From: Amylibacter sp. SFDW26
Lineage (GTDB): Bacteria; Pseudomonadota; Alphaproteobacteria; Rhodobacterales; Rhodobacteraceae
Assembly (NCBI RefSeq): GCF_009184395.1
Contig: NZ_WEIC01000001.1
Location: forward strand, 576,047-640,046
Reading direction: 5' to 3'
DNA length: 64,000 nt
Shown: positions 56,543 through 63,045 of the stretch, piece by piece
Layout of the letters: each line of letters begins with the position of its first letter
Numbering within the stretch: position 1 is the first letter of the stretch
Translations under genes and position numbers: made by a program
Notes under the pieces: model-generated
What the model was told of the DNA's origin: nothing
Seen by the model: the letters and a program-made list of their open reading frames with translations, nothing else
Database searches by the model: none

Positions 56543-57760
56543 CTACGCAGACTTTTGCATTTCAGCCTGAGCCCAATTCGGGAACGGATCGCTGTATTCT
56601 GGCAGTTCTTCCACGCTCTCCGCAATCCCTTCAGGGATCAAAGCACCGTCCAGTTTCGACGTTAAATCCAGCCAGTTCATCCCTGTGCCAATAAACACGA
56701 TCTCTTGACGGCGATCGCCCCATGGTTCTTGCCAATGTGTTTCCATATAGGCGCGTGCGGTTTCATTCTCTGGCCATCTTTCCTTTGGTGTGGTTGCCCA
56801 CCACTGGCCAAGCGGTTTCACGGATGACAAAGCCCCCGCCAAAGAAAACTCTGCAACCCACTCAGGACGTGATGCAATCCAAAAGTGGCCTTTGGCGCGG
56901 ATCACACCTGGCAAAGCGCCGTTTAAAACGGCCAAGATTTTTTCTGGGTCAAACGGGCGGCGTGCGCGGTATACGAATGTTTTCACATCATATTCATCGC
57001 TTTCTGGTATGTGATCGGCAAATCCATACAGCTCTTTTGCCCACATCGGGTGATCATGTGCAGAAGCGAAATCAAACAGCCCTGTGTTCAAAATCTCTTT
57101 TGCTGGCACATCAGAATAGCTGCTGCGAATGATCTTAGCGTCCGCATTCAAGCTTCGAATAATTTTCAACGCCGCATCCACCTGATCTTTTGTGGCATCT
57201 ACAACTTTGTTCAGCACCACAACATCCGCAAATTCGATTTGCTCGACCAGTAGGTTTACCAAAGTACGGTCATCCTGTTCGCCCAAGCTTTCACCACGAT
57301 CGCTTAAGAAGTCATGGCTTGAATAATCATTCAGCAGGTTCACCGCATCCACAACAGTCACCATTGTATCAAGGCGGGCTATATCAGACAGGCTTTGGCC
57401 GTCTTCATCACGGAACTCAAATGTTGCGGCTACAGGCAGGGGTTCGGAAATACCCGTGGATTCAATCAACAAATAATCAAAACGACCATCCTCAGACAAT
57501 CTGCGCACTTCTTGCAAAAGGTCATCACGCAATGTGCAGCAAATACAACCGTTCGACATTTCAACCAATGTTTCATCTGTGCGGCTCAGTTCTGTATTCG
57601 CGCGAACAAGGTCTGCATCGATATTCACCTCGGACATATCATTCACGATGACAGCAACTTTTAATCCATCACGATTATTTAAAACACGATTGAGCAAGGT
57701 GGTTTTGCCTGCACCAAGGAAACCAGATAAAACTGTTACAGGAAGACGGGTGTCGGACAT
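56543..57760 (-). CDS. COG0523 (ZigA/CobW-like) GTP-dependent metallochaperone
   Basis: 405-residue G3E GTPase. Walker A GFLGAGKT (residues 13-20), metal-binding CxCC in NGCICC (Cys72, Cys74, Cys75), [14 protein letters not shown], and NKVV for guanine specificity. The C-terminal CobW_C domain contains [20 protein letters not shown]0523 proteins under Zur control help cells survive zinc limitation. An ATGTTAT-AAC-ATAACAT dyad lies 22 bp upstream of the start, which supports this role. Confidence 0.92.
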
Positions 57761-58992: not shown

Positions 58993-59199
58993 TTATGCAA
59001 GTGCGATTGCAGTTGCGTTTTCTTTACCGTTACGGCCAGTTTCTAGCTCGTAAGATACTTTTTGGTTGTCGTCCAAACCTTGAAGGCCAGCCGCTTGAAC
59101 AGCAGTGATGTGTACGAATACATCGTCGCCGCCTTGGTCAGGTTGAATGAAGCCGAAGCCTTTAGTTGGGTTAAACCATTTTACAGTGCCAGTAGCCAT
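58993..59199 (-). CDS. Cold-shock protein, CspA family (first copy)
   Basis: 68-residue beta-barrel RNA chaperone starting MATGTVKWFNPTKGFGFIQP, with RNP1 KGFGFI and RNP2 DVFVHI. The ATG at 59199 has AGGAGA about 9 nt upstream; the longer frame to 59343 runs through the untranslated leader and is rejected. A second, 90%-similar copy lies upstream on the same strand at 59582-59788, and the leaders share a GCGACATGCCG-type block. Confidence 0.95.
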   Translation of the reverse strand: MATGTVKWFNPTKGFGFIQPDQGGDDVFVHITAVQAAGLQGLDDNQKVSYELETGRNGKENATAIALA

Positions 59200-59221
59200 C
59201 TGTTTATCTCCTAAGTTTCCG

Positions 59222-59247
59222 CGCACGACATGCCGCGGTGTGGTGTT
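59222..59247 (-). repeat. Leader block shared by the two cspA genes
   Basis: GCGC(A/G)CGACATGCCG followed by a TGGTG stretch occurs here and at 59812-59836, 23 and 24 nt upstream of the two cspA start codons. Duplicated with the genes, or kept for temperature-responsive translation. Confidence 0.55.
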
Positions 59248-59423
59248 ATCTCCTTGATCCCATTGCAGAAATACAAGGCGGCGCACGGCCGTTAATACAG
59301 GACTTTCAAGCATCAGATTTAGGAACTTGGAAAGGCCGGACACTCTGTTAGGAGAGAGGCTGAAACCGTGCAGACCATAATCTGCGTAAGTCTCTTAATT
59401 CATCGAATTCTACTAATGTATAA

Positions 59424-59442
59424 CGATCCGAAGACCGCCGTT
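59424..59442 (-). repeat. 19-nt partial copy of the cspA1 terminator
   Basis: CGATCCGAAGACCGCCGTT is identical to 58949-58967 in the cspA1 terminator, but lacks the pairing arm. It suggests the cspA region arose by tandem duplication. Confidence 0.65.
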
Positions 59443-59531
59443 ATCATATATTAAGTGGCACATAAGCTGGAATAGGGGCATCGGTCAAGGGGTATCGGTT
59501 TTTGAGACTTTGATAAGCGGGTTTCCCCAAA

Positions 59532-59558
59532 CAAAAACGGCGACCAATGGCCGCCGTT
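59532..59558 (-). terminator. Terminator of second cspA gene
   Basis: Minus strand: AACGGCG-G...CGCCGTTTTTG, 24 bp after the cspA2 stop, the same AACGGCG/CGCCGTT stem as the cspA1 terminator. Confidence 0.8.
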
Positions 59559-59581
59559 AAAAATCATGAAAAAACAATGAA

Positions 59582-59788
59582 TTATACAAGAGCGATGTTC
59601 GTCGCGTTTTCCTTGCCGTTACGGCCAGTTTCTAATTCGTATGTTACTTTTTGGTTGTCGTCCAAACCTTGCAAACCTGCAGCTTGAACAGCCGTTACGT
59701 GTACAAATACATCGTTTCCGCCATCATCAGGTTGAATAAAGCCGTAGCCTTTCGTTGGGTTAAACCATTTTACGGTGCCATTCGCCAT
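59582..59788 (-). CDS. Cold-shock protein, CspA family (second copy)
   Basis: 68 residues, starting MANGTVKWFNPTKGYGFIQP at the ATG at 59788. RNP1 is KGYGFI and RNP2 DVFVHV. It differs from the first copy at only a few positions (Gly/Ser, Asp/Asn, Ile/Val types), so the pair is a recent duplicate. The longer frame to 59974 is leader sequence. A GGAGAA Shine-Dalgarno lies just upstream on the minus strand. Confidence 0.95.
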   Translation of the reverse strand: MANGTVKWFNPTKGYGFIQPDDGGNDVFVHVTAVQAAGLQGLDDNQKVTYELETGRNGKENATNIALV

Positions 59789-59989
59789 CCGTGTTCTCCT
59801 TCGTAGTGCCACGCGCGACATGCCGTGGGGTGGTGCTGCTGTAGTATTCTCGGTATCAGCAGGCATCACGGGGGAAGTCAGCGGATCAGTGGAACAATTA
59901 GCTTTACATCGTGGATAATGGTTCGATTCTGTTGAATTGCAAGCATTTCCTTTGAGGGTTATAGATTTCGGCAATTAACGGAGAATCTG

Positions 59990-60322
59990 ATGAATATTAC
60001 ACTATATGGACTAAAGACCTGTGATACCTGCAAAAAAGCTTTAAAATCACTATCTGCAGCTGGGCATGAGGTGACTTATGTTGATGTACGTGCAGATGGT
60101 GTTGCACCGGCTAAATTAGCAGAGTTTCAAGGGCTTTTTGGTGATGCGCTGACAAATACACGCTCAACAACCTGGCGCGGTTTGGATGAAACACAACGTG
60201 CACGTCCAGCATTAGAGTTGATTGCAGAAAACCCAACCTTGATGAAGCGACCTGTCATTGAAACAGCAAATGGTTCATATTTAGGATGGGGAAAAGATGT
60301 TCAAGCACAGTTTGAAGATTAA
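59990..60322 (+). CDS. ArsC/Spx-fold protein (YffB-like)
   Basis: 110-residue thioredoxin-like protein of the ArsC/Spx superfamily. The N terminus MNITLYGLKTCDTCKKALKS contains CxxC, and LMKRPVIETANGSYLGWG holds the conserved Arg-Pro loop. The gram-positive Spx role is transcriptional; in Proteobacteria such YffB-like proteins are assigned as glutathione-dependent reductases of unknown substrate. Its terminator is shared with the bufferin operon. Confidence 0.88.
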   Translation: MNITLYGLKTCDTCKKALKSLSAAGHEVTYVDVRADGVAPAKLAEFQGLFGDALTNTRSTTWRGLDETQRARPALELIAENPTLMKRPVIETANGSYLGWGKDVQAQFED

Positions 60323-60324
60323 GG

Positions 60325-60357
60325 AAAAGGCCTTAGATATCTACTCTAAGGCCTTTT
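60325..60357. terminator. Strong bidirectional terminator
   Basis: Near-perfect 13-bp stem AAAAGGCCTTAGA/TCTAAGGCCTTTT between the ArsC/Spx gene (plus) and doxX (minus), with T-rich ends on both strands. It ends the bufferin operon. Confidence 0.9.
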
Positions 60358-60362
60358 AATTA

Positions 60363-60908
60363 TTAGCGAATTTTAAGAACGCGATCCAAGGATAATGGTC
60401 CTGCGCCTTTTACGATCATCGTAATAAGTAAAGTGATCCACAATAGACGTTGATCCAAGACCAAGCTGTCTGATGCACGGTCAAACCAAGAGCCGAATGT
60501 TGCAGAATCAAGGTCATGCCCTGTTTTATCGACGAATGATTGTACAAAAACAAACCCAATCATGCCGATCGCAGCAAAACGCGTGAATAAACCAACGAGG
60601 ATTAAGAAAGGTAGAACAAACTCTGCGGTCGTACCAGCAATCGCAATCAGTTTGTAGATACCGCCCAATGCACTGCTGTCGTATCCAACAGCATCAAATA
60701 CTTTTGGGAACATCTGGATGTATGCGTTGTCATTCGGGAATAAGAAGCCCAGAACGCCATCGCCAACTTTGGTTTTTGCAGAGTTCCAGAAATAAACAAG
60801 CAAAACAGCAGCAAAAGCAAAACGTGCCAATGTTGGAAGCAGCCATGTGCCTGCTAACTTTGTGATCATATCTATGACCTTATTATAGAGTGTAAAAATT
60901 GCGTTCAT
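60363..60908 (-). CDS. DoxX-family membrane protein of the bufferin cluster
   Basis: About 181 residues with four hydrophobic helices (near 18-36, 65-85, 92-110 and 130-150). DoxX features are WLLPTLARFAFAAVLLVYFW and TAEFVLPFLILVGLFTRFAA. The ATG at 60908 is favoured because GGGG lies 6 nt upstream; 60914 is also in frame. It sits 5 bp after the bufC stop. DoxX genes are common in DUF2282/DUF692 clusters. Its role may be membrane quinone or redox handling; this is not established. Confidence 0.9.
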   Translation of the reverse strand: MNAIFTLYNKVIDMITKLAGTWLLPTLARFAFAAVLLVYFWNSAKTKVGDGVLGFLFPNDNAYIQMFPKVFDAVGYDSSALGGIYKLIAIAGTTAEFVLPFLILVGLFTRFAAIGMIGFVFVQSFVDKTGHDLDSATFGSWFDRASDSLVLDQRLLWITLLITMIVKGAGPLSLDRVLKIR

Positions 60909-60919
60909 GATCATCCCCT

Positions 60920-61666
60920 TTATATGTTTATGTGTGTGATCAGTTGGTGTGTCAGTAATAATCCAAGCGCTTGGCCCAGATCAAAGGTTTCATCGATACC
61001 CAGTGTTGCCTCATAGGCTTCGCCAAGTGTGTTATTCTGTAAGTTTGATAAAAAACAATGTGTTGCATCATCTATTTCAACCATATCTACGTCTAGTTCT
61101 GGTCTAAATAATAGAACGGCTTGTGCCACAGCTTTTGGTTGCGGTGCCCCTTCAACCATATTCATGTTCCATATTGAAAGAACTGGATATGCTGATTTAA
61201 GCATCCGGGCAGCTGGTGATAATTCTAATTTCACGTTCATCAGATCTTCGGGCGCAATAGCGCCAAGAGCATCAGGTGAAATCGCGATGCTGTCTGTTGC
61301 ATGATAGCTGCTGCGACGCGCCAGTTCCAAACGGGCAACATCTGGCAGATAGGGAAGCTGTTGTACGTGTTCAAAGTTTTCTAAAAATTCAGGGAAGGCT
61401 TCACCGTAAAACATCATCATTGGTGTGGTCGGCGGATGTGCACGAACATAAACGCCTGCCATCGCTTTGAAAAATTCATCTCCGACCAATTTATGGATAG
61501 CTGGAAAGGCTGTTTCCATTGCATCAATCAGGCTGACCACCACATTATTGCGGTAGACATCAAAGCGTTTGCCAGCAGGACGGCCTTGATAATCAACCAT
61601 GCCTGCGGGTGTCGCCAAGTCTGCGTTTAACAGGGCGGCTGTGAAATCTGTTTGCGTTACGGTCAT
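60920..61666 (-). CDS. bufC: DUF2063 partner of the MNIO enzyme (bufferin maturation)
   Basis: 248-residue protein with the N-terminal DUF2063 module (FTAALLNADLATPAGMVDYQ, then GRPAGKRFDVYRNNVVVSLI) that recruits the precursor peptide to the MNIO enzyme. The C-terminal half is a separate alpha/beta region (FRPELDVDMVEID). It overlaps bufB by 4 bp and is followed by doxX. In characterised bufferin clusters the DUF2063 protein is the essential recognition partner. Confidence 0.9.
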   Translation of the reverse strand: MTVTQTDFTAALLNADLATPAGMVDYQGRPAGKRFDVYRNNVVVSLIDAMETAFPAIHKLVGDEFFKAMAGVYVRAHPPTTPMMMFYGEAFPEFLENFEHVQQLPYLPDVARLELARRSSYHATDSIAISPDALGAIAPEDLMNVKLELSPAARMLKSAYPVLSIWNMNMVEGAPQPKAVAQAVLLFRPELDVDMVEIDDATHCFLSNLQNNTLGEAYEATLGIDETFDLGQALGLLLTHQLITHINI

Positions 61667-62535
61667 TCTGCAGCGACCAACTGCGCGTTTGCCAGCAAAT
61701 CATCTGCAAGGCGGGCTTCATTGGCTAGAACATCCCAGCTTGGAATGTCATTGTCCCACTCAATCAATGTTGGGCGTGGGCCAGATTGTTTAAGCGTATA
61801 TTCATATAATTCCCAAACAGGATCAACGACTTGGCGTGAATGGCTGTCGATTAACAGCGTTTCGCCATGATCGTCTGCATCTTCTTCATGCCCACCTAAA
61901 TGGATTTCCCCAACGTGCTCTAAAGGATAGGCATCAATATAGGCTTCTGGGGAATACTGTTGGTTGGTTGCAGAGATGAAAACGTTGTTCACATCAAGCA
62001 GCAAACCACAGCCTGTACGTGTTGCAACTTCTGATAAGAAATCAATTTCAGACATATCGCTTTCTTCAAAAGCGCAATATGTGGATGGGTTTTCAAGCAG
62101 CATACGGCGGCCAACTGTATCTTGCACTTGATCGATGTGATCAACGACACGATCAACGACCGCTTGTGTGTAAGGCACAGGAAGGAGATCGTTTAAGAAA
62201 TGCGTTTCATGTGTAGACCACGCCAAATGTTCAGAAAACAGGGCAGGATTTAACCAGCTTACCAGATGTTTTAGGCGTGCAAGGTGATCTGCATCCAATG
62301 GACCTTCAGCACCAATAGACAATCCAACACCATGACAAGACACGGGATACATATCGCGAAGATGTTTAAGCTGCGCTATTGGGCGACCACCGTCACCCAT
62401 ATAATTTTCGGCGTGGATTTCGATCCAACCGATTGCAGAAGGGTCTTTCAAAATGCCATTCAAATGTTGTGCTTTATAGCCTACACCCGCGCGATTGGGG
62501 ATTTCAGGGATGTTGGCAGAGCTTTGATCTAGCAT
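61663..62535 (-). CDS. bufB: DUF692 multinuclear non-heme iron oxidative enzyme (MNIO)
   Basis: 290-residue TIM-barrel enzyme that modifies cysteines of the precursor peptide. Candidate iron ligands are spread through WIEIHAENYMG (His41, Glu43), CHGVGLSIG (His68), FSEHLAWS (Glu102, His103), LENPSTYCAFEE, LLLDVNNVFI (Asp181, Asn183), EIHLGGHEEDADDHG (His212, His216) and LIDSHSRQV (Asp230, His232). This pattern is diagnostic of DUF692. It lies 62 bp after bufA1 and overlaps bufC. Confidence 0.93.
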   Translation of the reverse strand: MLDQSSANIPEIPNRAGVGYKAQHLNGILKDPSAIGWIEIHAENYMGDGGRPIAQLKHLRDMYPVSCHGVGLSIGAEGPLDADHLARLKHLVSWLNPALFSEHLAWSTHETHFLNDLLPVPYTQAVVDRVVDHIDQVQDTVGRRMLLENPSTYCAFEESDMSEIDFLSEVATRTGCGLLLDVNNVFISATNQQYSPEAYIDAYPLEHVGEIHLGGHEEDADDHGETLLIDSHSRQVVDPVWELYEYTLKQSGPRPTLIEWDNDIPSWDVLANEARLADDLLANAQLVAAE

Positions 62536-62597
62536 TGTGAAAACTCCTTTTCAGGGTAGGTGTGGCAGAGTGTCCGCCACACCAAAAGACTTAATGC

Positions 62598-62900
62598 TTA
62601 TGCAGGGATGTCGCGTGAAAGCTCTTCCAAAGAACCTGTACGTGGTGTGCCGTCTGCAAGTGCTGGTAGTTCGATACCTTCACATGTACCTTTAGCAACC
62701 AATGACCATGCGTTACCTTGGTAATCTACTTTAGATGTACCTGCACATGATGTACCTGGACCAGCTGCACAACCGTTTTCACCAGCCAGAGCAACGCCGT
62801 AGCATTTTTCTTTACCAGCTGCTGAAGCTGTGTGTGTTTGCGCTGTAAGAGCTGCTGCAACTGCTGATGCTACTGCTAATGATTTTACTGTTTTTGACAT
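62598..62900 (-). CDS. bufA1: Bufferin-type precursor peptide (DUF2282)
   Basis: 100-residue secreted precursor. Residues 1-28 form a Sec signal ending HTASA, with cleavage before AGKEK. Four cysteines (Cys33, Cys44, Cys52, Cys73) lie in [33 protein letters not shown] and GTCEG; the central two are the ones modified in characterised bufferins. The mature protein is expected in the periplasm, binding copper. First gene of the operon, with a 14-bp palindrome 86-99 bp upstream. The C-terminal tail [20 protein letters not shown] is longer and more acidic than the cysteine core. Confidence 0.93.
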
Positions 62901-62985
62901 TGTGTGTCTCCTTGAAGGGTCTGTTAATACTGTTCGCTTCTTTGCGATGACTAAGACTTAGCAAAATAAATGTCTAACGCGCCAC

Positions 62986-62999
62986 TCACATCGATGTGA
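62986..62999. promoter_or_regulatory. Palindrome TCACATCGATGTGA upstream of bufA1
   Basis: Perfect 14-bp dyad, 86-99 bp before the bufA1 start. It has the same arms as the palindrome at 48841. Close by lie CTAAG-A-CTTAG (62951-62961) and GTAA-CA-TTAC (63021-63030). One of these is likely the operator of the bufferin promoter. Confidence 0.5.
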
Positions 63000-63045
63000 A
63001 TAACATGTAGTTCAGAGTTTGTAACATTACGGGGGCTAAAACGCA

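Follow-up and report, generated by a model that had tools for sequence, protein, structure and literature searches.

A Buf1-type bufferin operon in Amylibacter sp. SFDW26 and its putative upstream control site

Bufferin clusters are described as having at their cores the genes for a precursor, an MNIO enzyme, a DUF2063 protein and a DoxX protein, and thousands of bufferin precursors have been collected (PMC12452194). Among the described systems closest to the one studied here, genes CC3254-CC3257 of Caulobacter vibrioides encode proteins of the DUF2282, DUF692 (MNIO), DUF2063 and DoxX families, in this order, and are reported to be under sigma-F (PMC3511200). The gigPABT genes of Cupriavidus metallidurans comprise the same four families; they are described as a single operon, verified by RT-PCR and induced by copper and gold, that forms a divergon with rpoQ, which encodes an ECF sigma factor, and a putative antisigma gene (PMC10304878). 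The GIG operon of Legionella is likewise reported to combine these families (PMC5413113). In bufferins, the central cysteines are reported to be modified and the first and last to be joined as a disulphide (PMC12452194). Thiooxazoles have been argued to be the common product of MNIO-DUF2063 pairs; in the EGKCG captophorins (fontiphorin, oxazolin) they are installed by an MNIO enzyme with its DUF2063 partner, as is proposed below for the present system (PMC13097082).

Here we examine a locus with the same four families in Amylibacter sp. SFDW26, contained in a stretch of 64,000 nucleotides (hereafter, the window) of a 3.1 Mb genome rated 100% complete. The genes stand in the same order as in Caulobacter vibrioides, whereas the genome has no NrsF match and the promoter site is a different one; and in contrast to the divergon of Cupriavidus, the gene 5' of bufA1 has the same orientation and encodes a homologue of ferredoxin-NADP reductase; it is found also in four relatives' loci (L027, L041, L052, L072). 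We regard it as very probable (about 0.93) that this is a Buf1 bufferin operon, for which the chemistry and the copper role would follow by likeness to studied relatives and control would be exerted by another regulator. The gene set was already known; the new part is the upstream control site, which differs from Caulobacter's.

The four genes and their products

All four genes are on the minus strand, arranged head to tail in the order bufA1, bufB, bufC, doxX, with a gap of 62 bp between bufA and bufB, an overlap of 4 bp between bufB and bufC, and a gap of 5 bp between bufC and doxX. Across the whole genome there is a single DUF2282 match and a single MNIO match, both in this operon. An earlier note on this DNA had read it as a bufA1-bufB-bufC-doxX bufferin operon, a reading that held: all four families are present in the published order, and BufB passes the cut-off of its own model. 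Comparisons were made with a relatives set, the best 80 of 300 relatives of the window's locus, most of whose genera we take to be Rhodobacteraceae, and with a class sample, an even set of 289 Alphaproteobacteria genomes of which 100 have DUF2282; one locus was taken from each of the other 99 DUF2282 genomes and scored with profiles built from the relatives set.

BufB (61663-62535, minus strand), the predicted MNIO (DUF692) bufferin maturase, scores 355 bits on the Pfam MNIO model (cut-off 25) and 381.3 bits on NCBIfam NF050167, MNIO_BufB (cut-off 310). The DUF692 enzyme with its candidate metal ligands, as the note had it, is well supported: H68, H103, E148, D181, H212, D230, H232 and E259 have the same residues opposite them in 3BWW (HMMER alignment), and each of the eight is conserved in 77-78 of the 79 BufB rows aligned. 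For H216, too, 3BWW has a His opposite, but H216 falls below the 95% filter among relatives. That these nine residues act as ligands, and which of them bind iron, is our assumption.

The proposed partner, BufC (60920-61666, minus strand), is a DUF2063 protein by its Pfam score (PF09836, 98.7 bits, cut-off 27.2) and remains below the cut-off of the NCBIfam HvfC model (59.9 bits against 142). A sequence search of the PDB returned no convincing relative of BufC (best E 0.7). Its AF2 model (pLDDT 92.2) matches TglI of the TglHI complex (8hci, 8hi7; E 4.8e-06) and NGO1945 (3dee; E 1.0e-04), and 3DEE is named as a PME1 protein (PMC13097082), consistent with a partner of PME type 1. Both the family and the 4-bp overlap with bufB had been noted before and are confirmed.

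The last gene, doxX (60363-60914, minus strand), gives a weak call: 24.5 bits on Pfam PF07681, barely above the cut-off of 23.6, and 28.5 bits on the NCBIfam HvfX model, below its cut-off of 80. Its product, a predicted membrane protein, has three to four hydrophobic segments by hydropathy and is related to the DoxX proteins that relatives encode at this position. Its membership of the same tight operon, 5 bp from bufC, is upheld; its description as less usual is not. DoxX lies beside bufA in 71 of the 80 relatives' loci (the best 80 of 300), and the nine without it comprise L037, L080 and L081, each with more than 10 kb of DNA, and six on short stretches. Room (at least 2600 bases downstream) is available in 89 of the 99 fetched loci of the class sample, and 76 of these 89 carry DoxX downstream of the precursor on the same strand. 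DoxX is both a bufferin core gene (PMC12452194) and part of the same set in Cupriavidus, Caulobacter and Legionella.

Downstream of doxX, a terminator-like hairpin was picked up by a hairpin scan at 60325-60357 on the minus strand; the region has three terminator-like sites, no more than shuffled sequences (mean 3.6). Beyond the operon, at 58993-60322, lie two ORFs named by eye as cold-shock-protein-like and an ArsC-family gene, in opposite orientation; relatives of the second cold-shock ORF occur in 53 of the 80 relatives' loci, and relatives of the ArsC gene in 54. Further on, a CobW-family GTPase (56543-57760) scores 579 bits on the ZigA zinc chaperone model, just below its cut-off of 600.

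The precursor and its C-terminal tail

BufA1 (62598-62900, minus strand), the predicted bufferin 1 precursor, has 100 amino acids and matches DUF2282 (Pfam PF10048) with 83.2 bits against a cut-off of 22.4. Cysteines at 33, 44, 52 and 73, which the note had listed for a DUF2282 precursor, are indeed there and are kept in 84 of 84 aligned rows. Residues 1 to about 27, judged by eye, have a basic start, a hydrophobic stretch and an AxA-like end before residue 28, and are a probable Sec signal peptide. A sequence search of the PDB found no convincing relative of BufA (best E 0.67), and a structure model built from 30 sequences was poor (pLDDT 55, too low to use).

The tail that follows Cys73 has 27 residues, including GSLEELSRD, and with six acidic and two basic residues counted it is acidic, as claimed. 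The further claim that such a tail is less usual fails among close relatives, since 27 is their commonest length: 42 of the 84 aligned rows have 27 residues, 30 have 28, nine have 29 and three have 22, in a set that is drawn from the best 80 of 300 relatives and leans towards the window's own tail form. We therefore dropped the tail as a novelty, its length being ordinary in this company. The long tail is nevertheless not common in the class at large, where tail length runs from 9 to 31 residues over 99 loci and reaches at least 26 in 13 of them. Exact GSL stands at most 10 residues from the last Cys in 39 of these loci and at a greater distance in 14, while nearly half (46 of 99) lack it; with near forms included, the counts become 50, 14 and 35. 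The window's tail could thus represent a longer, conserved variant of an ending common to about half of the class. Within the C-terminal stretch of BufA1 (62601-62681), P79, R87, R96 and D97 are invariant in all 84 rows.

The region upstream of bufA

Upstream of the operon, 83-105 bp before bufA, lies a conserved operator-like site, TGTTATTCACATCGATGTGAGTG (62983-63005, minus strand), which contains the perfect palindrome TCACATCGATGTGA (62986-62999, minus strand); the genome has no second copy of this 14-base palindrome, even at one mismatch. Across the aligned regions, the columns of the site keep their information, with little left in most neighbouring intergenic columns, and a weak gCTA element follows about 18 bases after the end of the site. 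Inverted half-sites can be read by eye as CAC-N6-GTGA and, in many relatives, ACG-N4-CGTGA. A scan for sigma-70 promoters found five against 6.8 expected. In the open-access literature, judged by title or abstract, we found no description of this operator-like site.

A motif search in the 69 upstream regions that lack the sigma-F-type promoter reached a log-likelihood of 525 against 109 for shuffled regions (width 20), with sites in 50 of the 69. Fixed patterns were also counted in 83 upstream regions, one row being left out as too short: GTAAC-N16-18-CGAA for the sigma-F-type promoter, and a YGTGAnnCACnnnnnYGTGAnT-like pattern for the new site. The relaxed new site occurs in 41 regions (the window's among them), the sigma-F type in 14, neither in 28 and both in none; shuffled regions matched the sigma-F-type pattern at 0.18% and the relaxed site at 0.08%. 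The strict site is present in 24 of the 83 regions, and the window, which has GTTA in place of GTGA, is not among these; its 160 bases upstream of bufA do not contain the GTAAC-N16-18-CGAA promoter. The 28 regions with neither type include three second bufA copies (L021, L033, L045): in these loci a tandem bufA pair lies 5' of bufB, the first copy preceded by the conserved site and the second by neither site type.

The division extends to NrsF, of which a search of the window's genome returned no match and a control search found the Caulobacter vibrioides protein. NrsF is present in 14 of 14 genomes of sigma-F-type loci and in 0 of 16 genomes of loci with the new site (chosen by hand among the 40 such loci fetched), a pattern that could rest on few changes, the genomes compared being related. 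NrsF also lies near the operon in L037 and, together with an ECF sigma gene, in L053. In 20 genomes picked by hand for a strict site in their bufA region, the strict pattern occurs 22 times against once for the backward control. Because 20 of the 22 occurrences precede bufA (contig ranges compared), the strict site appears to serve the bufferin operon almost alone in these genomes; the other two matches fall inside ORFs that are 1224 and 288 bases long.

In the window's own genome a looser pattern matches four places against none for the control, with about three expected by chance, as estimated from how many bases are fixed. Apart from the site before bufA, one match is inside what by eye is the S4 ribosomal protein gene, one inside an ORF of 555 residues, and one outside ORFs. 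The last (C1:304338-304356; L219 1501-1519) is outside ORFs of at least 60 residues; an ORF of 276 residues, whose N-terminus resembles a signal peptide, starts about 60 bases past it. This match may be a second target of the regulator. A longer pattern was found in five of 21 genomes, all five of the window's genus, and was absent from eight of the 13 genus members searched, these eight being counted irrespective of the presence of bufA; one further match of this pattern fell inside an S4-like gene.

A CopR/CusR-type response regulator, whose boxes we take to be TGAC-N6-GTCA-like, was considered as the binder of the site and rejected: the genome has 28 matches to the heavy-metal regulator model, the best at 186.2 bits, below the cut-off of 279.2. 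This best match looks like PhoB, because it follows ORFs read by eye as pstB and phoU.

Between the operator-like site and bufA, a short leader hairpin, TCGC-AAAGAA-GCGA, lies at 62934-62947 on the minus strand. Of the 41 regions, 26 have a stem of at least five pairs, compared with 21% of shuffled sequences; the stem in the window itself has only four pairs. In many relatives the stem stays as its sequence varies. The evidence for this hairpin is moderate, since stems were nearly as frequent (23 of 41 regions) in a control window placed over the operator. An Rfam search with the hairpin found no family; its one hit, to a microRNA family, was at chance level.

Proposed mechanism and alternative readings

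By analogy with studied relatives, from which the modification of the cysteines, the export and the copper binding of the peptide are carried over, we propose that BufC would dock the BufA1 precursor to BufB, an iron enzyme that would oxidise Cys44 and Cys52 to 5-thiooxazoles before Sec export; that a Cys33-Cys73 disulphide would form in the periplasm, where the mature peptide would bind excess copper; and that DoxX would act as a membrane partner. The operon would be switched on by a putative regulator binding the site 83-105 bp before bufA, a presumed activator site by the putative -35 region. In this lineage another regulator acting at the conserved site probably switches the operon on, instead of sigma-F and NrsF. 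The fuller hypothesis, to which we give even odds, is that the operon has dropped out of the sigma-F/NrsF regulon in some of the Rhodobacteraceae and related bacteria, where control has passed to a dedicated, single-operon putative regulator binding a paired inverted-repeat site (ACG-N4-CGTGA, CAC-N6-GTGA) by the -35 region.

The cluster might instead be of the oxazolin (HvfA) or methanobactin type, given that BufB also scores on the HvfB model (247.4 bits) and the MbnB model (54 bits), as all of these are MNIO enzymes. Both scores are far under the respective cut-offs of 360 and 325, however, and the BufB model is passed; moreover, unlike the repeat peptides of the EGKCG captophorins, the window's precursor is a four-Cys DUF2282 protein in whose sequence no EGKCG repeat was found, and such an assignment is extremely improbable. 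If the locus is a bufferin operon, its peptide could answer another stress, such as gold, chromate or cadmium, with copper secondary: the Caulobacter operon is reported to be induced by chromium and cadmium (PMC3511200), the Cupriavidus operon by gold as well as copper (PMC10304878), and the window's operon is without a sigma-F-type promoter, so that its signal may differ. We consider it unlikely that copper is secondary, as copper chelation and a benefit to growth in excess copper are reported for Caulobacter bufferin 1 (PMC12452194), and the products of MNIO-PME1 clusters are described as generally copper-binding (PMC13097082).

The upstream site, too, can be read in other ways. Its end is near the presumed -35 region, with the weak gCTA some 18 bases further on in aligned regions, as might be the case for a recognition sequence for an alternative sigma factor; but the conserved stretch exceeds 20 bases and has inverted half-sites (by eye), making it longer than a -35 element, so that a transcription-factor operator is preferred and a sigma-factor sequence is unlikely. 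We deem it very unlikely that the link between promoter type and NrsF mirrors descent alone and that the site has no role: the compared genomes are related, and those in which NrsF was sought are of unstated completeness, yet the site columns kept their information while most of their neighbours lost theirs, which points to selection.

As a bufferin operon, the locus adds one more bacterium to a family with thousands of collected precursors. If the upstream site is a dedicated operator, it would open a direct way to study how the stress answered by bufferins is sensed in these bacteria, and would allow a clean test of whether the bufferin-inducing signal is copper at all; and if a dedicated regulator does act there, it would constitute a new single-target copper or stress switch.
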